Below are positions 9,155 to 61,411 of a DNA stretch of 64,000 bases, in pieces (the stretch's first letter is position 1; every line of letters starts with the position of its first letter). Both the position numbers and the translations under genes were made by a program. Source of the stretch: Xanthomonas sp. F10 (lineage in GTDB: Bacteria; Pseudomonadota; Gammaproteobacteria; Xanthomonadales; Xanthomonadaceae); the NCBI RefSeq assembly GCF_014206815.1, contig NZ_JACHNP010000002.1:1-64000 (forward strand). Direction: 5' to 3'. The notes under the pieces are model-generated. The model saw nothing but the letters and a program-made list of their open reading frames with translations. It did no database searches and had not been told where the DNA came from.

Positions 9155-9847
9155 TCAGAACCCCTTGCGCTTGCGCAGCCGCCGCGCGATCGCCGCGCGC
9201 ACGTACAGCCCGTAGACCATGCCGAAGGCGAAGCCGGCCAGGTGCGCCGACCACGCCACCATGCCGAACGCCGGGCCGATGTAGGCGAACACCACCTGCA
9301 GCGCCGCCCAGGTGCCGATCAGCAGCGAGGCCGGGGCGCGCACGAACTCCAGGAACAGCCCCAGCGGCAGCACCACGCCGAGCTTGGCCCGCGGGAACAG
9401 CGCCAGATAGGTGCCGATCAGTGCCGAGACCGCGCCGCTGGCGCCGATGATGACCCGGTCCGGGGTGCCGATCGCGAACACCGCGGCTAGGTTGGAGATC
9501 GCCCCGCCGCCCAGGAACAGCAGCAGGAACCGCCACGGCCCCAGCACGCGCTCGGCCGGCAGGCCGAAGATCAGCAGGAACACCAGGTTGCCGAGCAGGT
9601 GCGACCAGTCGGCGTGCAGGAACAGCGCGGTGAACAGGCGCAGCACGCTGCCGTCCTGCACCGTGGCCAGCCAGTCGCGCGGGCTGCCGACCCCGGCCGA
9701 GAGCGCGCCCCAGTCCAGCCACAGGGTCGCGCGCGCCTCGTCGGGGCGGCTGATCGACCACAGGAAGGCCAGCCACATCGCCGCGAACAGCAGCGGGGTG
9801 GCCCAGCGCAGCGTGGTGCGTTCGCGGGAGGGGATGGAAACGAACAT
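9155..9847 (-). CDS. Rhomboid family intramembrane serine protease
   Basis: A 230-residue polytopic membrane protein with about six hydrophobic segments. The catalytic serine lies in GASGAVSALIG, preceded by a segment with HLLGNLVFLLIFG (HxxxN motif of TM2), and the catalytic His is in AHLAGFAFGMVYG. This is the complete GxSG...H dyad of active rhomboids, which cleave single-span membrane proteins within the bilayer. The ATG at 9847 lacks an obvious Shine-Dalgarno, so the exact start is less certain. Substrates are unknown. It lies 37 bp before DUF1820 on the same strand. Confidence 0.92.
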   Translation of the reverse strand: MFVSIPSRERTTLRWATPLLFAAMWLAFLWSISRPDEARATLWLDWGALSAGVGSPRDWLATVQDGSVLRLFTALFLHADWSHLLGNLVFLLIFGLPAERVLGPWRFLLLFLGGGAISNLAAVFAIGTPDRVIIGASGAVSALIGTYLALFPRAKLGVVLPLGLFLEFVRAPASLLIGTWAALQVVFAYIGPAFGMVAWSAHLAGFAFGMVYGLYVRAAIARRLRKRKGF

Positions 9848-9950
9848 GCGAGGAAAGGGAAGCAGGAGACCGCCAGGGACGCCACGATAACGGCTTCATC
9901 CGGCTGAACGCACGCCGACTCCACACGAACCTGAACGTATCATGTCGTTA

Positions 9951-9978
9951 TTGTTGAGTTAACGCGGAGGCGTATACT
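9951..9978 (+). promoter_or_regulatory. Candidate sigma70 promoter of the FadL-type porin gene
   Basis: TTGTTG (9951-9956), 16-bp spacer, TATACT (9973-9978), giving a leader of about 105 nt before the ATG at 10093. CGTAT (9971-9975) and ATACG (9982-9986) form an inverted repeat overlapping the -10 region, a possible repressor site. No known regulator motif is matched. Confidence 0.55.
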
Positions 9979-10092
9979 CGCATACGGCGTCGTATGTCGG
10001 GAGGGGACTCCGGCGCGCACTCCTGGGTCTTTTCGGCCCCGGCCTGCGCAGACGCGAACACAGACAATTCGTCTTCCGGAGAAAAACTAGCC

Positions 10093-11433
10093 ATGCAAAA
10101 CGCAACCCAGTTCGTCCGTTTCACCGCTCTGGCCGTCGGCATCGTCGGCGCGCTGGCCATGGGCCAGGCGCACGGCGCCGCGTTCCAGCTCAAGGAGAAC
10201 AGCGCCAAGGGCCTGGGCCGCGCCTTTGCCGGCTCCGGCAGCGCCCCCGGCGACGCGTCCATCATTGCCAACAACCCGGCCGGCATGCGCCAGCTCGACG
10301 GCAAGGTGTTCCAGGCCGACGTCAGCGCCATCCAGTTCTCGGCCAAGTACCAGGGCGACGGCGGCACCTATGCCACCGGCGCGCCGATCTCGGGCGGCCG
10401 CGGTGGCGACGCCGGCATGATCGCGCCGGTCCCGGCCGTGTACTTCCACATGCCGTTCGGCGAAAACAACAACATGCACTTCGGCACCTCGCTGACCGTG
10501 CCGTTCGGCTTCAAGACCGAATACGACCGCGACTGGGTCGGCCGCTACAACGGCGTGAAGACCGAACTGCAGGCGATCGACCTGAACTTCGCCTTCTCCT
10601 ACGACGTCAACCCGTACGTGTCGTTCGGCGCGTCGGTGTTCGCCGAGCGCCTGGACATCGATCTGACCAACGCCATCGACTTCGGCACCATCCTGGCCTC
10701 GCGCCGCGTGCCGGGCTTCGCGCCGGGCAGCGCCGACGGCTTCTCGCGCATCAAGGGCGACAACACCGAGGTCGGCTTCACCCTGGGCGGCCTGTTCAGC
10801 ATCGACGAGAACACCCACATCGGCTTCAGCTACCGGTCGCAGGTCGAGCACAAGATCACCGGCGGCGACGCCGACTTCACCGTGCCGGGCAATGCCGCCA
10901 CCGTGCTGGCCGTCGCCGCGCCGGGCACCTTCGTCGACACCAAGGGCCGCGCCACGGTCAAGCTGCCGGCCAGCGCCACCGCCAGCTTCACCCACAACAT
11001 CAACGAGCAGTGGACGGTGATGGCCGACGTCACCCGCACCGCCTGGAGCAAGTTCGACAAGGTCACCGTCGACTTCGCCTCCAACCAGCCCGACAGCGTG
11101 CTGGACTTCTCGTATCGCGACACCACCTTCGTGTCGCTGGGCGCCGACTACCGCATGAGCGACACGCTGACCCTGCGTGGCGGCCTGGCCTACGACCAGA
11201 CCCCGACCACCGACCGTCACCGCGACGTGCGCGTGCCGGATGCGAGCCGCAAGTGGGTCTCGCTGGGTCTGACCTGGAAGCCGTCCGAGCAGTCCGAGTA
11301 CAGCTTCGGCTACACCCACCTGTTCACCAGCGATCCGAGCATCGCCACCACCAGCGCCACCGGCAACACCCTGGTCGGCGACTACGACGTGAGCGGCAAC
11401 GTGCTGGCGGCTTCGGTCAACTACAAGTTCTGA
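10093..11433 (+). CDS. fadL: Outer-membrane transport protein, FadL/TodX family
   Basis: A 446-residue outer-membrane beta-barrel predicted to import long-chain fatty acids or other hydrophobic molecules. The signal peptide ends at GQAHG-AAFQ. The FadL N-terminal signature is present (AFQLKENSAKGLGRAFAGSG, then IIANNPAGM with the NPA motif), amphipathic strands alternate throughout, and the chain ends in an aromatic residue (SVNYKF), typical for BAM-dependent insertion. ATG 10093 follows GGAG in the leader; the open frame extends upstream only through the leader. Monocistronic: a strong promoter lies before it and a terminator directly behind. Confidence 0.93.
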   Translation: MQNATQFVRFTALAVGIVGALAMGQAHGAAFQLKENSAKGLGRAFAGSGSAPGDASIIANNPAGMRQLDGKVFQADVSAIQFSAKYQGDGGTYATGAPISGGRGGDAGMIAPVPAVYFHMPFGENNNMHFGTSLTVPFGFKTEYDRDWVGRYNGVKTELQAIDLNFAFSYDVNPYVSFGASVFAERLDIDLTNAIDFGTILASRRVPGFAPGSADGFSRIKGDNTEVGFTLGGLFSIDENTHIGFSYRSQVEHKITGGDADFTVPGNAATVLAVAAPGTFVDTKGRATVKLPASATASFTHNINEQWTVMADVTRTAWSKFDKVTVDFASNQPDSVLDFSYRDTTFVSLGADYRMSDTLTLRGGLAYDQTPTTDRHRDVRVPDASRKWVSLGLTWKPSEQSEYSFGYTHLFTSDPSIATTSATGNTLVGDYDVSGNVLAASVNYKF

Positions 11434-47963: not shown

Positions 47964-49052
47964 CTAGCGATCCAATAGCGGCCGCGACACCGAATCGCGT
48001 GTGATCAAGCGGTGCGGCACCACGTGATTGACGCTGACGCGCTCCGCCCCGGCGGCCTGCCGGATCTCGCGTAACAGGAGGTCGATGGCGGCATCGGTCA
48101 TGTCCGCCACCGGCTGATGGATGGTGGTCAGCTCCGGCCACACCATCGTCGATGCCGACGTGTCGTCGAACCCCACCACCGACAGATCCTCCGGCACCTT
48201 CAGGCGCCGGCGATGCGCCACCGACACCACCGCCGAAGCCATGTCGTCGTTGCTTGCGAAAATCGCGCTGGGGCGCGGCTGCAGCGCCAAGAGCCGCTCG
48301 GCCGCCTCCAATCCGGCGCGATAGGTGAAGTCGCCGGCCTGCACCAGTGCGGCGTCGTAGCCGATGCCCGCCTCCGCCAGGGCATCGCGGTAGCCCTGCC
48401 AGCGGTGCGCGCTGGCGGTCTGGTTCGGGTCGCCGGTGATGTAGCCGATGCGGGTGTGCCCGTGCGCGATCAGATGCGAGACCATGTCGTGGCTGGCGCG
48501 GCGGTCATCGATGCGCACGCAGGAGACCTTGTCGCTGAACCGGCTGGACGCGATGGCGACGACCGGAATCCCGGCCTCGACGAAAGCACCGACGATGGCC
48601 TTCGATTCGCATAGCGGCGGCGGCAGGATCACCCCCGCCACGCTGTTGCAGAGCGTCTGCGCGGCAGCGCGGCGTGCCCGCGGACCCAGGCCATCCCAGG
48701 TCGCGATCACCAGTTGCGCCGCTGCACGGGTGGACCCGCGCAGTGCCCCGACCAGCAGTTCGCGCAGATAGCTGGAGCTGGGATTGGTGTAGATCAACGC
48801 GATGCACAGGTGCTGCGCCGCGGCGAGGGCGCTGGCGGCCGGGTTGGGCCGGTAGTCCAGGGCGCGCACGCTGCGCATCACCCGCTCGCGGGTGCTCTCG
48901 CGCACGCCGGCATGGCCATGGGTGACGCGCGAGACGGTCATGGGCGAGACGCCGGCATGCGCCGCCACGTCGTCGATGGTGATGGTGCTCGCTTTTCGAC
49001 GCAGCGTTTTGGGGGTGCTCTTCAAGGAATGCGTTCCTTTGTTGCGACGCAT
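47964..49052 (-). CDS. LacI family transcriptional regulator
   Basis: A 362-residue repressor-type regulator. The N-terminal helix-turn-helix is [20 protein letters not shown], the hinge region is PNPAASALAAA, and the rest is a periplasmic-binding-protein fold ([36 protein letters not shown]). It is divergent from the TonB receptor, with the palindrome TGATAGCGCTATCA between them, which I infer is its binding site. It is paralogous to the regulator at 61426-62484; both share [19 protein letters not shown] and ILPPPLCES. The start at 49052 lacks a clear Shine-Dalgarno; a TTG at 49112 would lie inside the operator. Confidence 0.92.
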   Translation of the reverse strand: MRRNKGTHSLKSTPKTLRRKASTITIDDVAAHAGVSPMTVSRVTHGHAGVRESTRERVMRSVRALDYRPNPAASALAAAQHLCIALIYTNPSSSYLRELLVGALRGSTRAAAQLVIATWDGLGPRARRAAAQTLCNSVAGVILPPPLCESKAIVGAFVEAGIPVVAIASSRFSDKVSCVRIDDRRASHDMVSHLIAHGHTRIGYITGDPNQTASAHRWQGYRDALAEAGIGYDAALVQAGDFTYRAGLEAAERLLALQPRPSAIFASNDDMASAVVSVAHRRRLKVPEDLSVVGFDDTSASTMVWPELTTIHQPVADMTDAAIDLLLREIRQAAGAERVSVNHVVPHRLITRDSVSRPLLDR

Positions 49053-49097: not shown

Positions 49098-49111
49098 TGA
49101 TAGCGCTATCA
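49098..49111. promoter_or_regulatory. Perfect palindromic operator between the LacI and TonB-receptor genes
   Basis: TGATAGCGCTATCA is a perfect 14-bp palindrome with an AGCGCT core, as in the Xanthomonas xyl-box TGGTAGCGCTAACA (as I recall it from published work; 12 of 14 match). It lies 46 bp upstream of the LacI start and 234 bp before the TonB-receptor start, suited to auto- and cross-repression. Confidence 0.75.
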
Positions 49112-49345
49112 ATTAGCGGCAGTCGGGCTCGGGGGGAGCCTTTATCGCGCGTCGTCTGGCAATCCTGAAACGGAGTTTTGAGTCGCAGCGACCGCACAGC
49201 GCGCTGCGATGTTCGGCGTGGAAGACGGGCATCGCCCGTGCGTGCCTCTTTGGGGGAGGGGCGGTACATCCATCGATCGCATGTCAGAGGGGAGAGTCAT
49301 GAGCGCTTCTATGTTTCGTCGTCTGCCAGTCCTGAGGGCTCGTCC

Positions 49346-52300
49346 ATGAGCCGGGCGCTGGCGAAGTTCAAATCCAGGGCCATGTTCACGTTCGTCGGCG
49401 GCGTGCTGGTCATCAATCCCGCCTTCGCACAGGACGCGTCGACGCCGGCGCCGGCACCGCCCGCCCAGCAGCAGGCCCAGAGCAGCCCGACCCAACTGGA
49501 CACCGTCCAGGTCACCGGCCTGCGCAACAGCCTCAGCCAGGCGATGGACATCAAGCGCGACGCCGCCGGCGTGGTGGATGCCATCAGTGCCGAGGACATC
49601 GGCAAGTTCCCGGACACCAACCTGGCCGAGTCCCTGCAGCGCATCACCGGCATCTCCATCGAGCGGCGCGATGGCGAAGGCGCGCAGGTCACCGCGCGCG
49701 GCTTCGGCCCGCAGTTCAACATGGTGACGCTCAACGGGCGGCAGATGCCGGGCGCCGATGCGTTCGGCGCCGCCGGGCAGGTCGCCATCGGCGGCGTCGA
49801 CGGCGGCACCCGCGCCTTCAACTTCGCCCAGTTGGCCGCCGAGGCGATCAACGGCATCGAGGTCTACAAGACCAGCCAGGCCAACGTGCCCAGCGGCGGC
49901 ATCGGCGCCACCATCAACATCCTGACCTCGCGTCCGTTCGACCATCAGGGCATCGTCGCCAGTGCCGGCGCCAAGGCGGTTTCGGACCGCAGCCAGCCGT
50001 TCGACAACGACCTGACCCCGGAACTGTCCGGCATCTTCAGCTACAGCAATCCGGACAAGACCTTCGGCGTCGGCGTCAGCGCGAGCTACCAGAAGCGCAA
50101 GGGCGGCTCGGTGCAGGCCACCGAGAACTACTGGAACGTGCAGCCGTGGACCGGCTCGATGCCCGGCAACCCGACCGTGGTCAACGCGCCGCAGATCGGT
50201 GCGCTGTACGCGCGCCCGAACGACCTGCGCTATGCGTTCTCCGAGTTCGAACGCGAGCGCGTCAACGGCCAGGCGGTGCTGCAGTTCGCGCCCACCGACA
50301 GCCTGACCCTGACCCTGGACTACACCTACTCGACCAACGAGATCACCGAGAATCGTGGCGAGCAGGGCATGTGGCTGCAGAACAGCAACTACACCGACGT
50401 GACCTTCGACACCAGCGGCGCGGTGGCCGTGCCGACCTACATCCGCGAAATCGCCGGCACCAAGGATTTCGGCCTCGAGCAGCAACGCAGCATGCAGAAG
50501 TACAAGCTGGGCTCGCTCGGCCTGAACGCGGTGTGGAACGTGACCGACCGGCTCAAGCTGAGCTTCGACGCGCACGACTCGAAGAACGAAAGCCGCCCCA
50601 ACGATCCGCTGACCGGCGGCGGTTCTCTCTTCATGAGCATCGCCGGCACCAACAACTGCACCACCGGCCCGCACTGCGGCGGCTCCTGGGTGCAGGAGTT
50701 GAACTTCAACAACGGCCTGCCGATCGGCACCCAGGTGTGGTATCCGAGCGACGCCGCTGCCGCGGCCAACGTCAACGGCGTGGTCAACCCGGGCTTCGTG
50801 CCGGGCGAGATCGGCACGCAGGTGCTGCGCGTCAACTCGCAGAGCCAGATCAGCCAGATCAAGCAGGCGCGCGTGGACGGCGAGTGGAGCTTCGACCAGG
50901 GCCGCTTCCAGTTCGGCGTGGACAGCAGCAAGTCGACCACCCACCGCATCCAGGCCGCCGAGGCGTATTCCACCCTGGGCGACTGGGGCGTGGCCAATGT
51001 CGACCGCGATACCGCCGGCGGGCTGATGAACCTGATGCAGCCGGTCAACATCATCGGCCTGTTCGACGACTACGGCGGCACCAGTTGGCCCGCATGGCGG
51101 GGCGATGCCGGCCGGCTCGCGGAATGGGCAGCCGGCCAGTACGGCGTCGGCCTGGGCGTGAGCCCGCAGCGCGCCGCCGACAATTTCGTGGAGGAGAAGA
51201 CCCGCTCGGCGTACTTCCAGGTGGAACTGGATGGCGAGTTGGCCGGTCGGCGTACCAATACGCGGTTGGGCGTGCGCTACGAAACCACCGACGTGGTCTC
51301 GACCTCGGTCATCGCCACCCCGGAAGCGATCGAGTGGCAGTCCAACAACGACTTCCGCGTGGTGCTGTCCAACGCGCAGCAACCCTTCAGCGAAAAGACC
51401 ACCTACAGCTACATCCTGCCCAACCTCGATTTCAGCATCGACCTCACCGACACGCTGAAGGGCCGCGTCTCGTTCGGCAAGAGCATCGCGCGCGCGCCGA
51501 TCGGCAACCTCTATGCCGGCCCCGGGGCGCAGCAGCCGTTCGGCTCGGTGCTGATCGACCCGTCCTCGCGGGCCAGCGGCACCGCGCAGAACCCGGCGCT
51601 GAAGCCGCTGGAGTCCGACAACCTCGACCTGGCGCTGGAGTGGTACTTCGCCGACGCGAGTTACCTGTCGGTGACCTACTGGAACAAGTCGGTCAACAAC
51701 TTCATCGGCAACACCGTGGTGCAGGAGAATCTGTACGGCCTGCGCGATCCGACCTCCGGCCCGGACGCGAGGACGGCACTGGCCTTCCTCACCAGCGGTG
51801 CCTGTCTCGCCCAGGTCGGCCCGGCCAACGCAGCGGCCTGCTCGGCCAACGATACCTCGCTGTTCACCGCGCTGGCCCTGCTGCGCAACAATCCGGCCGG
51901 CCTGGCCGCCTACAACGGCACCGGCGCGCAGGTGCTGGCGACCGAAGCGGCCTACGATCTCTACGGCGAGGCCGACGACCCGCTGTACGAGTTCAACGTC
52001 AACCGCCCGATCAACCAGAACCAGGCCAAGCTGCACGGCTGGGAACTCGGCGGGCAGTACTTCTTCGGCGACACCGGGTTCGGCGTCCTCGCCAACTACA
52101 CCATCGTCAAGGGCGACGTGGGCTACGACAACGGCGGCGATCCGGGCATCGACCAGTTCGCGCTCACCGGCCTGAGCGACACCGCCAATGCGGTGCTGAT
52201 GTACGAGAAGTACGGCTGGTCGGTACGCCTGGCCTGGAACTGGCGCGACCAGTACCTGATCCTGGCCAACCAGGGCACCAGCCGCAATCCGTACTATGTG

Positions 52301-52483
52301 GAACCCTACGAACAGTGGGACCTCAGCGTGAACTACACGTTGAACGACAACTGGTCGTTCGGCCTGGAAGCGATCAACCTGACCGGCGAGGACGTGCGCT
52401 GGCGCTCGCGTACCTCGCAGATGATCGTGAAGCTGGCCGACCAGAGTCCGCGCTACATGCTGGGCGTTCGCTACAGGTTCTGA
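49346..52483 (+). CDS. TonB-dependent receptor of the xylose/xylan locus
   Basis: A 1045-residue outer-membrane active transporter. It has a signal peptide (MSRALAKFKSRAMFTFVGGV to AFAQD), a TonB box (LDTVQVTG at residues 51-58), a plug domain (about 65-190) with IGKFPDTNLAESLQRITGIS and ERRDGEGAQVTARGFGPQFN, and a 22-strand barrel ending in YMLGVRYRF. ATG 49346 follows GAGGG; a longer in-frame start would lose the signal peptide. The plug is of the IroN/FepA-like carbohydrate type common in Xanthomonas, where TBDRs import plant oligosaccharides. Xylo-oligosaccharides or substituted ones are the inferred ligand, from the genes behind it. Confidence 0.95.
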   Translation: MSRALAKFKSRAMFTFVGGVLVINPAFAQDASTPAPAPPAQQQAQSSPTQLDTVQVTGLRNSLSQAMDIKRDAAGVVDAISAEDIGKFPDTNLAESLQRITGISIERRDGEGAQVTARGFGPQFNMVTLNGRQMPGADAFGAAGQVAIGGVDGGTRAFNFAQLAAEAINGIEVYKTSQANVPSGGIGATINILTSRPFDHQGIVASAGAKAVSDRSQPFDNDLTPELSGIFSYSNPDKTFGVGVSASYQKRKGGSVQATENYWNVQPWTGSMPGNPTVVNAPQIGALYARPNDLRYAFSEFERERVNGQAVLQFAPTDSLTLTLDYTYSTNEITENRGEQGMWLQNSNYTDVTFDTSGAVAVPTYIREIAGTKDFGLEQQRSMQKYKLGSLGLNAVWNVTDRLKLSFDAHDSKNESRPNDPLTGGGSLFMSIAGTNNCTTGPHCGGSWVQELNFNNGLPIGTQVWYPSDAAAAANVNGVVNPGFVPGEIGTQVLRVNSQSQISQIKQARVDGEWSFDQGRFQFGVDSSKSTTHRIQAAEAYSTLGDWGVANVDRDTAGGLMNLMQPVNIIGLFDDYGGTSWPAWRGDAGRLAEWAAGQYGVGLGVSPQRAADNFVEEKTRSAYFQVELDGELAGRRTNTRLGVRYETTDVVSTSVIATPEAIEWQSNNDFRVVLSNAQQPFSEKTTYSYILPNLDFSIDLTDTLKGRVSFGKSIARAPIGNLYAGPGAQQPFGSVLIDPSSRASGTAQNPALKPLESDNLDLALEWYFADASYLSVTYWNKSVNNFIGNTVVQENLYGLRDPTSGPDARTALAFLTSGACLAQVGPANAAACSANDTSLFTALALLRNNPAGLAAYNGTGAQVLATEAAYDLYGEADDPLYEFNVNRPINQNQAKLHGWELGGQYFFGDTGFGVLANYTIVKGDVGYDNGGDPGIDQFALTGLSDTANAVLMYEKYGWSVRLAWNWRDQYLILANQGTSRNPYYVEPYEQWDLSVNYTLNDNWSFGLEAINLTGEDVRWRSRTSQMIVKLADQSPRYMLGVRYRF

Positions 52484-52578
52484 AGAAGGCGAGGAGCTTC
52501 TCTTCGCGTGTCGCCACGGACGCCGTCGCTGTCGCGGCGGCGCTCCGTGCCAGGCTGCAACCGGGAGTGCGCAACACG

Positions 52579-53337
52579 ATGCCGCGTTACGAAATGCTCA
52601 ACAACATCGCGCACCGCGACCTGCGCGTGGCCACCGACTTCGGGCCGGAGTTCGGCGACGCGGTGGGCATGGTGCCGGCCTATCCGAGCGAGTTCGCCGA
52701 GCTGCAGCGGGAATATCCGCTCTTCCTGCGCAAGGATCCGGCGACCGGCGCGTGGCAGTCGGTGGTGTTGCTGGGGTTCGAGCAGCACGAGAACCTGTTC
52801 CTGCAGGAGCGGCGCTGGGCGGCCTCGTATCTGCCCGGGGCTGCCGCCAAGGGGCCGTTCCTGATCGGCTTCCAGGAGCAGCGGATCGATGGCGTGCTCA
52901 CCCAGGAGGCGGTTTTGCACGTGGACATGGAGCATCCGCGGGTGACCGCGATGCAGGGCGAGCCGGTGTTCTTGCCGCAAGGGGGTAACACCGCCTATCT
53001 CGACCACATCACCACGGTGCTGCGCGGCATCCACGAGGGCCATGCCTTCGGCGCGGAGATGTTCGCCGCGCTCGATGCGCACGGACTGATCCAGCCGGTG
53101 ACGCTGGACGTGCAAGTCGATGCGCAGCATCGGGTCGGCGTCAGCGGCCTGCACGCGATCGACCGTGAGCGCCTGTCTCAGTTGGATGGCACCGCGCTGG
53201 CCGCGCTCAACCGCGCCGGCTATCTCGAAGGGGCGTTCCTGATGCTGGCGTCGCTGCACAACATGCGGCGGCTGATCGCCGAAAAGCAGCGACGCTTGCG
53301 ATTGCAGGATGCCGCCGTCGCGGCGGGCAGGAACTGA
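52579..53337 (+). CDS. SapC family protein
   Basis: A 252-residue soluble protein, MPRYEMLNNIAHRDLRVATD..., with the SapC landmarks VPAYPSEFAELQREYPLFLRK, VLLGFEQHENLFL and FLPQGGNTAYLDHI. SapC was named in Campylobacter S-layer work, but here the protein is of the kind found between TonB receptors and halogenase genes in Xanthomonas and Caulobacter. Its role is unknown. It lies 95 bp after the receptor and 2 bp before the cupin gene. Confidence 0.88.
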   Translation: MPRYEMLNNIAHRDLRVATDFGPEFGDAVGMVPAYPSEFAELQREYPLFLRKDPATGAWQSVVLLGFEQHENLFLQERRWAASYLPGAAAKGPFLIGFQEQRIDGVLTQEAVLHVDMEHPRVTAMQGEPVFLPQGGNTAYLDHITTVLRGIHEGHAFGAEMFAALDAHGLIQPVTLDVQVDAQHRVGVSGLHAIDRERLSQLDGTALAALNRAGYLEGAFLMLASLHNMRRLIAEKQRRLRLQDAAVAAGRN

Positions 53338-53339
53338 CC

Positions 53340-54359
53340 ATGCCGGACGGCGGGGCCATGCGGACACTGGAGGGCGTGCAGCCCACCGCGCTGCCAGTGC
53401 AGGACCTGGTGGCGGCCGGGGAGCCGGTGGTGTTGCGCGGCATCGCGCGCGACTGGGGGCTGGTCCAGGCCGGCTTGCGCTCCACGCAGGAGGCCCTGGC
53501 CTACCTGCGTGGTTTCGATGCGGGTGTGCCGGTTCCGTATTCCTTCGGCGAACCCGGGATCGAGGGGCGTCCGTTCTACAACGCCGATTTCACCCAGTTG
53601 AATGTCGAGGTCCGGCGTGGACCGCTCACGCAGGTGCTGGACGCGATCGCCGCCACCTTCGAGGATCCGCGGCCGCCCACCTACTATGTCGCGTCGCTGC
53701 CGATCGAGCGGGCGCTGCCGGGGTTCGCGCAGGCCAACGACGCCGGTCTGGCCGGTCAGGGCATCGATGCGCTGGCGAGCATCTGGATCGGCAACCGGGT
53801 GACGGCGTCCTGCCATTTCGACACGCCGGACAACCTGGCCTGCTGTGCCGTGGGCCGGCGCCGCTTCACCCTGTTTCCGCCGGAGCAGATCGACAACCTG
53901 TATCCGGGACCGCTGGACCCCACGCCGGGCGGGCAGGTGGTCAGCGTGGTGGACTTTGACCGCCCCGACTTCGCGCGGTATCCGCGCTTCCGCGATGCCC
54001 TGGCCAGCGCGCAGCACGTCGAGCTGGAGCCGGGCGATGCGCTGTTCATCCCGAGCATGTGGTGGCACCACGTGCGCAGCCTTGAGCCGTTCAACGTGCT
54101 GGTGAACTACTGGTGGCGCAGCGCGCCGGCGTTCCTGCCCTCGCCGCTGCCTGCGCTGCAGCACGCGATGTGGGCGCTGCGCGATCTGCCGGCGCGCGAG
54201 AAACAGGCGTGGGCGCAGATCTTCGATTACTACGTGTTCGGTCCGGGCGAACGCGCAGCGCAGCACCTGCCCGAGGCCGCGCGCGGCGAACTGGCGCCGT
54301 TCGACGAAACGCGTGCGCGCCGCGTGCGCGCGCAGTTGCTGGCGCGGCTCAACCGCTGA
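53340..54359 (+). CDS. Cupin-like (JmjC/Cupin_8) domain protein
   Basis: A 339-residue predicted Fe(II)/2-oxoglutarate-type oxygenase or cupin. The metal-binding HxD is in TASCHFDTPDNLACC and the distal His in MWWHHVRSLEP, in the order expected for Cupin_8/JmjC proteins; VVLRGIARDWG near the start is typical. It starts 2 bp after the SapC stop. The substrate is unknown; hydroxylation of a protein or small molecule is inferred from the family only. Confidence 0.88.
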   Translation: MPDGGAMRTLEGVQPTALPVQDLVAAGEPVVLRGIARDWGLVQAGLRSTQEALAYLRGFDAGVPVPYSFGEPGIEGRPFYNADFTQLNVEVRRGPLTQVLDAIAATFEDPRPPTYYVASLPIERALPGFAQANDAGLAGQGIDALASIWIGNRVTASCHFDTPDNLACCAVGRRRFTLFPPEQIDNLYPGPLDPTPGGQVVSVVDFDRPDFARYPRFRDALASAQHVELEPGDALFIPSMWWHHVRSLEPFNVLVNYWWRSAPAFLPSPLPALQHAMWALRDLPAREKQAWAQIFDYYVFGPGERAAQHLPEAARGELAPFDETRARRVRAQLLARLNR

Positions 54360-54372
54360 TGGGAGCATCGCC

Positions 54373-55902
54373 TTGAACCTGGCCACCACACCAGACGGAC
54401 GCATCCGCAAGGTCGTCATCGCCGGCGGCGGCACCGCCGGCTGGCTGGCAGGCTGCGCGCTGGCGCACCAGTTCCGCGATCGTTTGGACATCACCCTGGT
54501 GGAGTCCGAGCAGATCGGCACCGTGGGCGTGGGCGAGTCGACCGTGCCGCCGATCCGCATGTTCCACCGCTTCCTGCAGATCGACGAGCAGGAGTTCCTG
54601 CGCGCGGTGGCCGGCACCTTCAAGCTCTCGATTTCCTTCGAGCACTGGCGTCGCCCCGGCGATCGCTTCATCCATCCGTTCGGCACCATCGGGCAGGGCA
54701 CCTGGGCCACACCGTTCCATCATTTCTGGCTGGACAGCCTGCGCCGCGGCATGCCGTCGGACCTGGGCGATTACTGCCTGGAAAGCGTGGCCTCGCGTGC
54801 GGACCGGTTCTCGCTGGAGACGCAGCCGCAGGTCAACTACGCCTATCACTTCGACGCCGCGCTGTACGCGAAGTTCCTGCGCAAGAAGGCCGAAGGCTAT
54901 GGCCTGCGCCGGGTGGAAGGGCAGATCCGCGAGGTTCGGCAACATGCGCATGACGGCGCCATCGCGTCGCTGCTGCTGGACGACGGGCAGGTCATCGAGG
55001 GCGACCTGTTCATCGACTGCACCGGCTTCCGTGGCCTGCTGACCGAGCAGACCCTGCACACCGGCTACGAAGACTGGCGCGACTGGTTGCCCAGCGATCG
55101 CGCCGTGGCGGTGCAGACCGAGGCGGTCGCGCCGCCGGTGCCGTATACCCGTGCCATCGCGCACGAGGCCGGGTGGCGCTGGCATATCGCGCTCCAGCAC
55201 CGGGTCGGGTGCGGGCTGGTGTTCTCCAGCCGCCACATGTCCGACGACGAGGCGCACGCCAAGCTGCTGCGCGACGTCGACGGTCCGCCGCTGCGCGACC
55301 CGTGGCTGGTGCCGTTTCGCAGCGGGCGCAGGTTGCAGGCCTGGAACAAGAACGTGGTGGCGCTGGGCCTGGCCAGTGGCTTCATCGAGCCGCTGGAATC
55401 GACCAGCATCCACCTGACCATCAGCGCCGTGGTGCGCCTGATCCAGCTGTTTCCGAGCGACGGCATCAGTCCGGCGTCGGTGGAGCTGTACAACACGGTC
55501 AGCCGCCAGGAGATGGAGCACGTGCGCGACTTCATCATCCTGCATTACCACGCCACCCAGCGCGACGAGCCGATGTGGAAGGCATGCCGCGAGATGGCGC
55601 TGCCCGAGTCGCTGGCGATCCGGCTGCGCGCCTGGCGCGAACGTGCGCACGCCTGGCAGGACCCCGGCGAGCTGTTCCGCGTGGATTCCTGGACCAGCGT
55701 GTTGATGGGCCAGGGAGTCCAGCCCGGGCCGCCGCATCCGCTGGCCGCCGCCATCGGCGATGCGGATCTGCGCACGCTGCTGACGCGGATCCGGCAGCCG
55801 CTGCAGCAGGCCCGCGCGGCGATGCCCTCGCAGGCGGAGTTCATCGAGCGCTATTGCAAGGCGGCGCCGGACGTGTGGCAGCGGAGCGTTTCCCTGGCGT
55901 AG
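54373..55902 (+). CDS. Flavin-dependent tryptophan halogenase family protein
   Basis: A 509-residue FAD-dependent enzyme. The dinucleotide loop is VVIAGGGTAGWLAG; VGVGESTVPPI precedes GTFKLSISFEHW, the region where halogenases carry their catalytic lysine; and EAGWRWHIALQHRVGCG corresponds to the WxWxIP motif with the final Pro replaced by Ala. GLASGFIEPLESTSIHLT is the usual late motif. It begins with TTG 54373 behind GGGAG (no in-frame ATG nearby). Whether it halogenates anything is unproved; this subgroup always sits with SapC and TonB-receptor genes. Next gene, 63 bp on, is xylB. Confidence 0.9.
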   Translation: MNLATTPDGRIRKVVIAGGGTAGWLAGCALAHQFRDRLDITLVESEQIGTVGVGESTVPPIRMFHRFLQIDEQEFLRAVAGTFKLSISFEHWRRPGDRFIHPFGTIGQGTWATPFHHFWLDSLRRGMPSDLGDYCLESVASRADRFSLETQPQVNYAYHFDAALYAKFLRKKAEGYGLRRVEGQIREVRQHAHDGAIASLLLDDGQVIEGDLFIDCTGFRGLLTEQTLHTGYEDWRDWLPSDRAVAVQTEAVAPPVPYTRAIAHEAGWRWHIALQHRVGCGLVFSSRHMSDDEAHAKLLRDVDGPPLRDPWLVPFRSGRRLQAWNKNVVALGLASGFIEPLESTSIHLTISAVVRLIQLFPSDGISPASVELYNTVSRQEMEHVRDFIILHYHATQRDEPMWKACREMALPESLAIRLRAWRERAHAWQDPGELFRVDSWTSVLMGQGVQPGPPHPLAAAIGDADLRTLLTRIRQPLQQARAAMPSQAEFIERYCKAAPDVWQRSVSLA

Positions 55903-55927: not shown

Positions 55928-55941
55928 TGGTAGCGCTAACT
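55928..55941 (+). promoter_or_regulatory. Xyl-box type operator before xylB
   Basis: TGGTAGCGCTAACT differs from the Xanthomonas xyl-box TGGTAGCGCTAACA (as recalled) at one base only. It stands 24 bp before the xylB ATG, between the halogenase stop and xylB, implying a separately controlled xylB-xylA-GH3 transcript bound by a XylR-type LacI regulator. Confidence 0.8.
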
Positions 55942-55965
55942 TAGGGCGGGTACGAAGTGGAAGAC

Positions 55966-57459
55966 ATGCAACTGGTGGCCGGAATCGATGCGGGAACGCA
56001 AAGCCTGAAGGTCGTGGTCTACGACCCGGTCGGGCGCAGCGTCGTGGCCAGCAGCACCGCGCCGCTGGAGTTGGAGGCCGCCGCCGACGGCAGTCGCGAA
56101 CAGCGGCCGGCCGACTGGGTCGTCGCCATGCAGGCCTGCTTCCGGGCGATCGATCCTTCGCTGCGGTCGCGCCTCGGCGCGCTGGCGGTCTCGGGCCAGC
56201 AGCACGGCTTCGTTCCGGTCGATGCGGCAGGCGAGGTGCTGGCACCGGCCAAGCTGTGGTGCGACACCAGCACCTCGGCCGAGTGCGTGCAGATCATGGA
56301 CGCAGTCGGCGGCACGGCGCGCACCATCGCACTGGCGGGCAATCCGATCCTCACCGGCTACACCGCGTCCAAGCTGCCGTGGACCAAGACCCACCGGCCC
56401 GAGGCCTATGCGCGCCTCGCCACCATTCTGCTGCCGCACGACTACCTCAACTTCGTGCTCACCGGCCAGCGCTTCTGCGAATACGGCGACGCCTCGGGCA
56501 CGGGCTGGCTGGACGTGCGCACGCGCACCTGGTCGACCGAGCTGCTGCGCGCCACCGATCCGCAGCGCGATCTGGCGGAGTGCCTGCCGCGCCTGGCCGC
56601 ACCCGATGCCCTGTTCGACATCGACCCGGCCGCGGCCAGCCTGCTCGGCGTGCCGGCGACGCTGAAGGTCGCCGTCGGCGGCGGCGACAACATGATGGCG
56701 GCCATCGGCACCGGCTGCGTCGTGCCCGGTCGCCTGGCGATGAGCCTGGGCACCTCGGGCACCTTGTTCGCCTATTCCGACACGCCGGTGGTCGACCCGG
56801 ACGGCGCGTGGGCCGCGTTCTGCTCCTCCACCGGCGGCTGGCTGCCGCTGATCTGCACGATGAACTGCACCGTGGCGACCGAGCAGGTCGCCGCCGCGTT
56901 CGGTTTCAGCACCCGCGACGGCGATGCGCACCTGCACGCCACCGCGCCCGGTGCCGATGGACTGGTGATGCTGCCGTTCCTCAATGGCGAGCGCACGCCG
57001 GACCTGCCGCTGGGCAAGGGCGTGCTGGCGGGCTTGGACACCACCAACATGACCCCGGCCCATCTCTATCGCGCGGCGATGGAAGGGGCGACGTACAGCC
57101 TGAAGTACGGCTTCGACGCGTTCGTGCGTGCCGGCATGCACTTCGAGCGCATCGTGCTGACCGGCGGCGGCAGCAACAGCGGCGCGTGGCGGCAACTGGT
57201 GGCCGATGTGTTCGGCCTGCCGGTGGACGTGCCCACGCAGCCGGAAGGCGCGGCGTTCGGTGCGGCCTTGCAGGCGCTGTGGGCCGTGGGCCTGGCACGC
57301 GGCGATGCCGCCTCCATCGCCGACATCGCGCAGCGGCATGTGGCGGTGGATCCGCAGCTGTCGGCCCGCCCGGATCCGGCGCGCACCCAGGCCTACGCCG
57401 CGGCCTATGCGCGTTTCCTGCGTCATCTCGACGCCCTGACGCCGCTGTTGCGCGGCTGA
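55966..57459 (+). CDS. xylB: Xylulokinase
   Basis: Phosphorylates D-xylulose to xylulose 5-phosphate for the pentose phosphate pathway. A 497-residue FGGY sugar kinase. MQLVAGIDAGTQSLKVVVYD carries the phosphate-binding loop, VSGQQHGFVPVD and LWCDTSTSAEC the sugar site, SLGTSGTLFAYSD the second loop, and IVLTGGGSNSGAWRQLVADV the adenosine site. The GTG at 55957 is also possible (AGGGCGGG is 6 bases before it). An operator stands just upstream; xylA follows after 42 bp. Confidence 0.95.
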   Translation: MQLVAGIDAGTQSLKVVVYDPVGRSVVASSTAPLELEAAADGSREQRPADWVVAMQACFRAIDPSLRSRLGALAVSGQQHGFVPVDAAGEVLAPAKLWCDTSTSAECVQIMDAVGGTARTIALAGNPILTGYTASKLPWTKTHRPEAYARLATILLPHDYLNFVLTGQRFCEYGDASGTGWLDVRTRTWSTELLRATDPQRDLAECLPRLAAPDALFDIDPAAASLLGVPATLKVAVGGGDNMMAAIGTGCVVPGRLAMSLGTSGTLFAYSDTPVVDPDGAWAAFCSSTGGWLPLICTMNCTVATEQVAAAFGFSTRDGDAHLHATAPGADGLVMLPFLNGERTPDLPLGKGVLAGLDTTNMTPAHLYRAAMEGATYSLKYGFDAFVRAGMHFERIVLTGGGSNSGAWRQLVADVFGLPVDVPTQPEGAAFGAALQALWAVGLARGDAASIADIAQRHVAVDPQLSARPDPARTQAYAAAYARFLRHLDALTPLLRG

Positions 57460-57501: not shown

Positions 57502-58836
57502 ATGCACACCCAACCCTTCATCGGCGCCAAGGAATACTTCCCCGGCATCGGCCGCATCCCCTTCGAAGGCCGCGGCTCGGACAATCCATTGGCCTTCAAG
57601 GTCTATGACGCCAACAAGGTCGTCGGCGGCAAGACCATGCAGGAACATCTGCGCTTCGCGGTCTGCTACTGGCACACCTTCTGCAACGCCGGGCAGGATC
57701 CGTTCGGCCCGGGCACGCGCCACTTCCCCTGGGAGGTCGGCGCGCCGATGGCCAGCGCCGAGGCCAAAGTGGATGCGGCGTTCGAGTTCTTCACCAAGCT
57801 CGGCGTGCCGTACTGGTGCTTCCACGACATCGACCTGGCGCCGGACGCCGACGATGCCGGGCAGTACGAAAAGAACCTCAAGCACATGGTCGGCCTGGCC
57901 AAGGCGCGCCAGGACGCGACCGGGATGAAGCTGCTGTGGGGCACGGCCAATCTGTTCTCGCATCCGCGCTACATGAACGGTGCCGCGACCAATCCCGATT
58001 TCGCCGTGGTGGCGCGCGCCGCGGTGCAGGTGAAGGCGGCGCTGGAGGCGACGGTGGAACTGGGCGGCGAGCATTACGTGTTCTGGGGCGGCCGCGAAGG
58101 CTACGCCTCGCTGGTCAACACGCAGATGAAGCGCGAGCTCGAGCACTTCGCGCGCTTCCTCACCATGGCGCGCGACTACGGCCGCAGCATCGGCCTGAAG
58201 GGCAACTTCCTGATCGAGCCCAAGCCGATGGAGCCGATGAAGCACCAGTACGACTTCGACAGCGCGACGGTGGCGGGCTTCCTGAAGGCGCACGGCCTGG
58301 ACAAGGATTTCAAGCTCAACATCGAGGCCAACCACGCCACGCTCTCCGGCCACACCTTCGAACACGACCTGCAGGTCGCGGCCGACCATGGCCTGCTCGG
58401 CAGCATCGACGCCAACCGCGGCAATGCGCAGAACGGCTGGGATACCGACCAGTTCCCCACCGACCTGTACGACACCGTCGGCGCCATGCTGGTGGTGCTG
58501 CGCCAGGGCGGGCTGGAGGGCGGCCTGAACTTCGACGCCAAGGTGCGCCGCGAATCGACCGACCTGGAGGATCTGTTCATCGCCCACATCGGCGGCATGG
58601 ACGCCTTCGCCCGCGGATTGGAAGTGGCCCATGCGCTGCTCAACGAGTCGCCCTGGGAACAGTGGCGCCAGGAGCGCTACGCCAGCTTCGACAGCGGCGC
58701 CGGTCAGGAATTCGCGCGTGGCGCGCTCGGCCTCGCCGAGCTGGCGGGGCTGGGCGCGAAGGCCGGCGAGCCGCAGCAGATCAGCGGCCGGCAGGAGCGC
58801 TACGAGAACCTGATCAACCAGTACCTGCTGCGCTGA
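57502..58836 (+). CDS. xylA: Xylose isomerase
   Basis: Interconverts D-xylose and D-xylulose, the first cytoplasmic step. A 444-residue class II enzyme, the usual length of this class. It starts [20 protein letters not shown]. Catalytic and metal regions: [15 protein letters not shown] (catalytic His), [62 protein letters not shown] and GSIDANRG. The HDIDLAP rather than HDTDLAP variant appears. AGGACC precedes the ATG. Confidence 0.96.
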
Positions 58837-58858: not shown

Positions 58859-61411
58859 GTGACCGACACCCATTCCGCACGCCATACCGGCGCACTGCTG
58901 GCCGCACTCCTGCTCGCGCTTGCCGTGTGCGAGGGCGGCGTCCAGGCCGCGGCGCCCGCCCGCGCGGAGGCCAGCGCCTGGCCCAACGTGACCTGGCCGC
59001 TGCCCGAGGATCCCGCGCTGGAGAAGCGCCTCACCGACCTGATCGCCACCATGACGGTGGAGGAGAAGGTCGGCCAGCTGGTGCAGGGCGACATCGGCAG
59101 CCTCACACCGGAGGACGTACGCAAGTATCGATTGGGGTCGATCCTGGCCGGCGGCAACTCCGATCCCGGCGGCCGCTACGATGCTGCGCCGGCCGAATGG
59201 CTGGCGCTGGCCGATGCGTTCTATGCGGCGTCGATGGATACGTCGCAGGGCGGCAAGGCGATTCCGGTGCTGTTCGGCATCGATGCGGTGCACGGGCAGA
59301 GCAACATCGTCGGCGCCACGCTGTTCCCGCACAACATCGGCCTGGGTGCGACCCGCAACCCGGCGCTGCTGCGCCGCATCGGCGAAATCACCGCGCTGGA
59401 GACCCGTGCCACCGGCATGGAGTGGACCTTCGCGCCGACCGTGGCGGTGCCGCAGGACGACCGCTGGGGGCGGACCTACGAGGGCTATTCGGAGTCGCCC
59501 GAGGTGGTGGCCAGCTATGCCGGTGCGATGGTCGAGGGACTGCAGGGCAAGGTCGGAACACCGGCGTTTCTCGATGGCCGCCACGTGATCGCCTCGGTCA
59601 AGCACTTCCTGGGCGATGGCGGCACCACCGACGGCCGGGACCAGGGCGACACCAAAATCGACGAAGCCGAGCTGGTACGCATCCACGCCGCCGGCTATCC
59701 CCCGGCGATCGCCGCGGGCGCGCAGACCGCGATGGCCTCGTTCAACAGCGTCAACGGCGAAAAGATGCATGGCCACAAGGCGTACCTGACCGATGCGCTG
59801 AAGGGCCGCATGCACTTCGGCGGTTTCGTGGTCGGCGACTGGAACGGCCACGGACAGGTCAAGGGCTGCACGCCCACCGACTGCCCGGCCACCATCAATG
59901 CCGGCCTGGACATGGCCATGGCCTCGGACAGTTGGAAGGGCTTCTACACCACCACGCTGGCGGCGGCCAGGAACGGCACCATCTCCCCGCAGCGCCTGGA
60001 CGATGCGGTGCGCCGGATCCTGCGGGTCAAGATGCGGCTGGGCCTGTTCGAGGCGGGCAAGCCGTCGGCGCGCGCGGTCGGTGGCCAGTTCGCGCTGATC
60101 GGTGCGCCGGCGCATCGCGCAGTGGCGCGGCAGGCGGTGCGCGAGTCGCTGGTGCTGCTGAAGAACCAGGGTGGCGTGCTGCCGCTGTCGCCGAAGCAGC
60201 GCATCCTGGTGGCCGGCGACGGCGCCAACGACGTCGGCAAGCAAGCCGGCGGCTGGACGCTGAACTGGCAGGGCACCGGCACCACCCGCAAGGACTTCCC
60301 GAACGCGGACACCATCTACGAGGGCCTCGCGCAGCAGGCCAAGGCCGCCGGCGGCGAGGCCGTGCTTTCGGTCGACGGCAAGTACACGACGAAGCCGGAC
60401 GTGGCCGTTGTGGTGTTCGGAGAAAACCCGTATGCGGAGTTCCAGGGCGATCGGCCGACCCTGGCCTACAAGCCGGGCGACGACACCGACCTGGCGTTGA
60501 TCAAGCGGCTCAAGGCCGACGGCATTCCCGTGGTCGCGGTGTTCCTCAGCGGACGCCCGCTGTGGGTCAACCGCGAACTCAATGCCGCCGATGCCTTCGT
60601 GGCGGCGTGGCTGCCGGGCTCGGAAGGCGCCGGTATCGCCGACGTGCTGTTGCGCAGCCCGCAGGGCGGCGTGCAGCACGACTTCAAGGGCAAGCTGAGC
60701 TTCAGCTGGCCGCGCACGGCCACGCAATACGCCAACAACGTGGGGCAGAAGCACTACGACCCGCTGTTCGCCTTCGGCTACGGCCTGCGCTATGCCGACA
60801 ACGGCGATCTTGCCAAGCTCTCGGAGGTGTCCGGCCTCACCGGCAACGAAGGCGCGGCCGGGGTGTTCTTCGCCCGCGGTGCGGCCGGCCCGGGCATGGC
60901 CTTGCGCCTGGAAGGCAGCACCGGGCAGGGCGTAACCGTCACCCGCGTGCCGGAATCGCTCGACGGCGCGCTGTTGAAAGTCACCGGCGTGGATCACCTG
61001 GCGCAGGAAGATGGCCGCCGCCTCGCCTGGTCGGGCCGGCGCGAAGCGGTGGTTGCGCTGCAGTCGCATACGCCGCTGGACCTGCAGCGCGAGAGCAACG
61101 GCGACCTGATGCTGGTGACCACGCTGCGGGTGGACACCGCACCGCAGGGCCAGGCGTGGCTGACGGTCGGCTGCGGCAGCGGCTGCACGGCGCGGGTGGC
61201 GATCGGGCCGACGCTGGCAGCCCTGCCGGTGGGCCAATGGACGCGCGTGGGCGTGCCGCTCAAGTGCCTGGCGGCGGCCGGCGCGGATCTGGGCAAGCTC
61301 GATCGCCCCTGGGCGGTGGCGACGGCGGGCACGATGACGCTCTCGGTGTCGCGGGTCGCGCTCGGTGCGTTGAACGAAGCGGAGACGACCGTCGCATGCC
61401 CGAGCGCGTGA
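58859..61411 (+). CDS. Exported GH3 glycosidase (exo-beta-glucanase/beta-xylosidase type)
   Basis: An 850-residue secreted glycosidase. It begins with GTG 58859 behind AAGGAG and has a signal peptide ([20 protein letters not shown]). The GH3 barrel contains [65 protein letters not shown] and the nucleophile Asp in [11 protein letters not shown]; the sandwich domain ends [14 protein letters not shown], and a C-terminal extra domain of about 170 residues follows, like that of marine ExoP enzymes. Locus context suggests removal of terminal xylose from xylo-oligosaccharides, though ExoP relatives act on beta-glucans. Cotranscribed with xylBA. Confidence 0.9.

Follow-up and report, generated by a model that had tools for sequence, protein, structure and literature searches.

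A conserved, sugar-controlled TonB receptor module carrying SapC, JmjC-type cupin, and flavin-dependent halogenase-homologue genes in Xanthomonas

The locus and its question

Why does a xylose locus of Xanthomonas sp. F10 carry genes for a SapC-like protein, a JmjC-type cupin, and a flavin-dependent halogenase homologue between a TonB-dependent receptor gene and xylB-xylA? The locus lies in a stretch of 64,000 nucleotides (the window; contig NZ_JACHNP010000002.1, positions 1 to 64,000), and an earlier note on this DNA had proposed that the three proteins act together on imported plant material or modify the receptor. The four genes are found here to form a real, conserved, sugar-controlled receptor module, and at the system level the note's hunch was right. 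The answer on function is more tentative: the reading that we favour, with less than even confidence, is a TonB receptor under sugar control that comes with an oxidative trio of its own, which tailors a polypeptide destined for the cell surface. The module consists of four genes.

49346..52483, plus strand: TonB-dependent receptor of the TonB-Xanth-Caul subfamily (PF00593, PF07715; TIGR01782 at 775 bits; included in a tree of 218 receptors)
52579..53337, plus strand: SapC-family protein (PF07277, E 1e-63, 215 bits against a cut-off of 28.9)
53340..54359, plus strand: JmjC-type (Cupin_8) putative Fe/2-oxoglutarate (2OG) oxygenase (PF13621, E 7e-73; H159xD161...H243)
54373..55902, plus strand: flavin-dependent halogenase homologue (PF04820 Trp_halogenase, E 1e-187, 625 bits)

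The successive gaps between these genes are 95, 2, and 13 bp (49346-55902), and xylB, xylA, and a GH3 gene come next. The spacing, the four families, the HxD...H of the cupin, the flavin adenine dinucleotide (FAD) loop, Lys, and WRWHIA sequence of the halogenase homologue, and the xylB-xylA pair that follows had all been described in the earlier note and were confirmed from the sequence. The halogenase homologue starts with TTG, and a GTG at 54313 is a possible alternative.

Conservation of the four-gene module

A scan with a cupin alignment gave 590 matches to the window's cupin type, of which the best 80 serve as the named loci, a choice biased toward complete modules; each covers about 20 kb, and some are near relatives and not independent. 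One locus is present twice (L065 and L155), and the receptor-tree, promoter, halogenase-motif, and distance counts that contain it drop by one. When co-occurrence is tabulated in these loci, as the earlier note had suggested, a receptor lies upstream in 76 of the 80 (in the remaining four the stretch begins no more than 2.5 kb before the cupin), SapC lies directly upstream of the cupin in 76, and a halogenase lies downstream of it in 72 or upstream instead in two (L138 and L175). All four genes, with the halogenase downstream, are present in 66/80, which upholds the idea that the three proteins form a set tied to the receptor. No halogenase was seen adjoining the module in six named loci (L143, L147, L151, L169, L173, and L176). 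Four of these (L143, L147, L151, and L169) are Sphingomonas modules with receptor, SapC, and cupin, and are natural test cases for the role of the halogenase.

The named loci come from Xanthomonas, Stenotrophomonas, Pseudoxanthomonas, Lysobacter, Luteimonas, Sphingomonas, Caulobacter, Asticcacaulis, Hyphomonas, Microbulbifer, Gilvimarinus, Catenovulum, and further genera. A chance linkage of unrelated genes in one strain has nothing in its favour beyond the odd mix of families; it is refuted by the same gene order in named loci across Gammaproteobacteria and Alphaproteobacteria, and its probability is practically nil. The four genes are one inherited, real conserved unit.

Wider scans place the module against the background of its families. 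Among 299 Pseudomonadota genomes, SapC was matched in 111 and PF04820 above its cut-off in 144. For each family 150 places are listed out of a larger number, and one scan mostly scored five candidates per genome, so the following counts are lower bounds: at least 38 of the 150 listed SapC places have a listed halogenase within 4 kb on the same strand, and among the matches listed 27 of 40 SapC-halogenase pairs have the halogenase downstream at a distance that would fit a cupin gene. A set of 140 genomes from the class has SapC matches in 19 (24 genes), and the cassette, with or without the cupin, stands at six of these 24 genes (the window, L041, L043, L045, L050, and L052). The window's genome has one SapC match and at least 14 TonB receptors above the TIGR01782 cut-off; therefore, the cassette belongs to one receptor among many. 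The window's cupin has its best named relative, at 95% identity, in Xanthomonas sp. NCPPB 1128.

Moreover, the module tracks one receptor clade. In a FastTree tree of the 218 receptors, the cupin label needs six changes against a shuffle mean of 73. When paralogous modules of the same genome were compared, all four genes were far diverged in 6/6 pairs, and thus the trios go with their receptors. Receptor distances correlate with those of SapC, cupin, and halogenase at 0.87, 0.81, and 0.82 over all pairs, and at 0.63, 0.56, and 0.44 among receptors that differ by more than 50%; shared species ancestry contributes to these values. In the open full-text literature, searched by titles and abstract openings and leaving most subscription papers outside, no description of the receptor-SapC-cupin-halogenase association was found; to that extent the earlier label of an undescribed system holds, and the label is only partly right.

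Sugar control and the imported ligand

The regions around the module bear on its tie to sugar.

47964..49052, minus strand: LacI-family regulator, divergent from the receptor gene (PF00356/PF13377 and translation)
49098..49111, no strand: operator-like perfect palindrome TGATAGCGCTATCA, in the lacI-receptor intergenic region
55928..55941, no strand: second operator-like palindrome TGGTAGCGCTAACT, in the 54 bp gap before xylB
55957..57459, plus strand: xylB xylulokinase (TIGR01312; ATG at 55966 is a possible alternative start)
57502..58836, plus strand: xylA xylose isomerase (TIGR02630)
58859..61411, plus strand: GH3 glycosidase with an Exop_C domain (PF00933, PF01915, PF18559)

A second LacI-family gene lies beyond the GH3 gene and places sugar-type regulators on both sides of the locus. 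For lacI the first listed start is a TTG at 49112; the ATG at 49052, which leaves the palindrome upstream of the gene, is the likelier one. The window's genome has no exact match to TGNTAGCGCTANCA besides the TGATAGCGCTATCA site. With up to one mismatch the genome has four sites, two of them at this locus, and a reversed control pattern has 18; one-mismatch sites elsewhere in the genome therefore mean little.

The distribution of the motif over receptor promoters (up to one mismatch; three of the 218 receptors, close to an edge, left out) is more telling. It precedes 53 of the 92 receptors that are followed directly by SapC or Cupin (52/91 distinct), none of the 23 with a second halogenase as the next gene, none of the 22 with a halogenase only, and nine of the 78 with none of the partner genes. 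Thirty shuffled palindromes matched the same 92 receptors 0.03 times on average and at most once. As judged from these sites, the LacI-type palindrome marks many, not all, modules, and its distribution supports a predicted sugar control of the receptor module. A site with no more than one mismatch also precedes xylB in 7/8 loci of related Xanthomonadaceae. In Hyphomonas johnsonii (L149), the module receptor and xylB are each preceded by a one-mismatch site. The claim that the cassette is wired into a xylose locus is borne out for the window's lineage by the palindrome common to the receptor and xylBA. The order of xylB and xylA directly after the halogenase also stands, and given the operator-like site in the halogenase-xylB gap xylBA may have its own promoter.

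Such an arrangement recalls the CUT (carbohydrate utilization) loci of Xanthomonas, in which a TonB receptor lies beside sugar enzymes and a sugar regulator, according to the parts of the report available (Blanvillain 2007, PMC1790865). The window has the same features, namely a TonB receptor with GH3, xylA, and xylB, and LacI-family regulators. For an inner-membrane sugar transporter, the search covered two frames past 62.5 kb in the window, and these gave no Pfam match. The same parts of that report give a palindrome before the xylose-induced X. campestris receptors XCC2828 and XCC4120 and also in Caulobacter, which may correspond to the motif described here. The words halogenase, SapC, and cupin do not occur in its main text (PMC1790865), and new here is the candidate LacI-type operator upstream of the module receptor that is repeated before xylB.

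These results bear on a second reading, namely that the trio acts in the cytoplasm on the aromatic or phenolic part of an imported glycoside or substituted oligosaccharide, either detoxifying it or opening it for catabolism. The operator-like site common to the receptor and xylBA is in line with it, as are GH3, GH43, GH9, GH16, GH1, and sugar transporters among the neighbours, and the tracking of one receptor clade is expected if that clade imports one ligand class. On the other hand, at other loci the neighbouring genes are diverse, some related to sugars and others not, as tallied by Pfam with a crude frame picker that includes spurious frames (94/132 and 84/117 picked frames scanned). Within the stretches of about 20 kb, homologues of xylA/xylB are present in 9/80 named loci, LacI-like proteins in 17/80, and GH3 in 18/80; therefore, a xylan-specific substrate, of which the earlier note had given a xylo-oligosaccharide as an example, is not supported. 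No esterase or aromatic-catabolism family recurs among the 25 neighbour families listed of 75 and of 89, with DLH (dienelactone-hydrolase family) appearing twice. Conserved receptor residues that are the same with or without a halogenase, described below, are neutral on the ligand. Tailoring of a ligand is possible; we consider it on the unlikely side, only slightly behind the polypeptide reading.

The halogenase homologue

The nearest solved structures to the window enzyme are 6Y1W (Xcc4156), 9LUQ, and BrvH. Its WxWxIP motif reads WRWHIA, so the strict motif is absent, and it is filed as a halogenase homologue rather than a proven halogenase. The earlier note had pointed to the altered motif. 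Among module copies that follow a cupin, 102/102 (101/101 distinct) retain the catalytic Lys and Glu, and W, W, and I of the motif are kept in all 102, with P in 85, A in 14, S in two, and G in one at the last position. The GxGxxG FAD loop is present in the window and 100/102 module copies, with two gapped. Because Lys, Glu, W, W, and I are kept throughout, the IP-to-IA change is read from the alignment as a tolerated lineage variant with no sign of a dead enzyme.

Xcc4156 of X. campestris (PDB 6Y1W) is the nearest solved structure, at 544 bits, with WMWRIP where the window has WRWHIA, and TN where it has TS. A close homologue of Xcc4156 stands inside the module of X. arboricola CFBP 7645 (L187), where the halogenase aligns with it over its full length at 988 bits, without gaps over 483 residues; identity appears to exceed 80%, as judged by eye from the alignment. 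BrvH from Brevundimonas BAL3 (PDB 6FRL) is of the same type. As far as the available parts of the two reports go, indole or its derivatives, and not free tryptophan, are the substrates on which Xcc4156 and BrvH act (PMC7336383, PMC5945002), with bromination of indole by BrvH (PMC5945002) and halogenation in vitro by relatives such as Xcc4156, the Xcc enzymes only brominating (PMC7336383). The Xcc4156 report calls the native substrates unknown both for BrvH and for three Xanthomonas halogenases, and its authors raise a peptide substrate for Xcc4156 as a hypothesis (PMC7336383). In the text available, the Xcc4156 report describes no gene neighbours and contains neither TonB nor 'gene cluster' (PMC7336383), and the BrvH report names only another halogenase gene as a neighbour, with TonB and SapC absent (PMC5945002). 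A close relative of one studied Xanthomonas halogenase, together with many homologues, now has its place in a defined receptor operon under sugar control, alongside two partners, and the question of the native substrate becomes approachable through one receptor.

The altered motif also raises the reading that the flavoenzyme is a peptidyl or small-molecule monooxygenase in the cell and that bromination in vitro is a side reaction. The last Pro of WxWxIP is replaced in 17/102 module copies, including the window, and the motif is said to prevent monooxygenase function in the part of the BrvH report at hand (PMC5945002). Weak superfamily matches of the window enzyme to QhpG and LodB, far below their cut-offs, and the restriction of the Xcc enzymes to bromination lean the same way. 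In contrast, the Lys and Glu of the halogenase mechanism, needless for a pure hydroxylase, are universal in the module copies, and this reading is unlikely.

The JmjC-type cupin and SapC

The metal triad of the cupin (H159, D161, and H243; HxD...H) is invariant, and its predicted model has the JmjC fold, with JMJD5, TYW5, and FIH as the closest structures. All three are JmjC hydroxylases; the window cupin differs in being bacterial and in lying in an operon with a halogenase homologue. The AlphaFold2 model of SapC (52597-53334) has a predicted local distance difference test (pLDDT) value of 96.1 and no clear match in PDB, and no signal peptide was seen in SapC by eye. The namesake of the family has a surface-layer or export role, and for the window protein the neighbour statistics that follow bear on such a role.

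SapC outside the module was collected as 37 lone-SapC loci in two samples (18 + 19), L278 having been dropped from the 20 loci of the second for a cupin or halogenase match; 63/70 neighbour frames were scanned in the first set and 55/56 in the second. An open frame of at least 1500 amino acids is present at 15/37 lone-SapC loci versus 4/80 module loci (p 5e-6), and with only frames below 0.4% Cys counted the numbers are 14/37 versus 0/80. Neighbour tallies near lone SapC include genes for ShlB, SecA, HlyD, outer-membrane efflux, and peptidyl-prolyl isomerase (PPIase) proteins. These giant-protein and secretion surroundings suggest polypeptide modification, and SapC gains two genomic settings, both pointing to surface or exported proteins. 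Very large Cys-poor frames accompany lone SapC at L032, L033, L035, L037, L039, L040, L264, L271, and L279, and some of these giant-frame loci also carry ShlB or outer-membrane efflux genes.

Possible tailoring of a polypeptide

In the favoured reading of polypeptide tailoring, SapC, the JmjC enzyme, and the flavoenzyme would all be cytosolic. SapC would bind a polypeptide destined for the cell surface and serve as its adaptor or chaperone; before export, the JmjC enzyme would hydroxylate side chains of this polypeptide and the flavoenzyme would halogenate or oxidise them. The simplest target would be the receptor itself or a small exported partner, and each receptor would carry its matching trio, made when sugar is present. 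In favour of this reading stand the conserved four-gene order, the receptor tree, the distant paralogous modules, the likeness of the JmjC model to JMJD5, TYW5, and FIH, the nearness of the halogenase homologue to Xcc4156 with its hypothetical peptide substrate, and the giant-frame and secretion genes near lone SapC. A narrower version, in which the target edited ahead of export is an outer-membrane transporter or a dedicated exported peptide, with SapC holding the nascent chain, the enzymes adding hydroxyl or halogen, and the sugar repressor co-controlling all parts, appears doubtful. In some loci, a second halogenase and an oxygenase of the DUF6445 family would join that editing.

Several points weigh against polypeptide tailoring. 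Conservation reaches at least 95% at 127 columns of the 101 halogenase-bearing receptors, and of these columns N949 alone is changed in at least half of the five receptors whose module lacks the halogenase. The clade-specific W344, W548, W665, and W967 (P0001 numbering) persist in the halogenase-less receptors and also in two clade members that have no module immediately after them; therefore, they look like structure or ligand residues. One such clade member without an adjoining module, L241, differs at three places from columns at least 97% conserved, none of them Trp. The first receptor of L127 adjoins another module, and a trio elsewhere in the genome could act in trans. The only available sequence test thus gives receptor editing no support, and this half of the earlier proposal, that the trio might modify the receptor, is possible but has gained nothing from it. 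No modified protein has been observed. As for SapC, its giant-frame signal is uneven between the samples (11/18 loci in the first and 4/19 in the second), and its invariant residues, including W74, are identical in the lone-SapC rows of alignment A1 and therefore point to nothing specific to the trio; the role proposed for it comes from neighbour genes only.

Putative accessory oxygenases and further halogenase homologues

A DUF6445 (PF20043) gene was found in 23 loci and in 20 of them is the next gene after the module halogenase (L121:11337-12047, L123:12599-13309, L156:12531-13226, and 17 other loci); it was looked for in the window and not found. An HxD...H...R pattern, read by eye from the alignment, suggests that DUF6445 is a further putative 2OG-Fe(II) oxygenase. 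Its position resembles multi-step tailoring, which would fit a trio that makes or modifies a halogenated, hydroxylated metal ligand imported by the receptor, and the receptor superfamily is the same. A 2010 survey by Iyer and co-workers reportedly linked such oxygenases with halogenated siderophores. The sugar-type operator-like sites in more than half of the module promoters speak against a siderophore-like system, no nonribosomal peptide synthetase (NRPS) or polyketide synthase (PKS) family is among the 25 neighbour families listed, and Fur boxes occur at only few receptor genes of X. campestris in the parts available of Blanvillain 2007 (PMC1790865). We regard such a system as quite improbable.

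In some loci a second halogenase is inserted between the receptor and SapC, and over all loci 7/26 halogenase copies that stand after another halogenase lack the catalytic Lys. From two to four halogenase genes stand in tandem beside TonB receptors without SapC in L091, L097, L101, L102, L103, and L110. The window's genome has a second full-length halogenase homologue (L054, G000:C3:245500-265400, 9158-10636, minus strand), with a LacI-like gene nearby and no SapC, Cupin, or TonB-receptor match within the 20 kb stretch.

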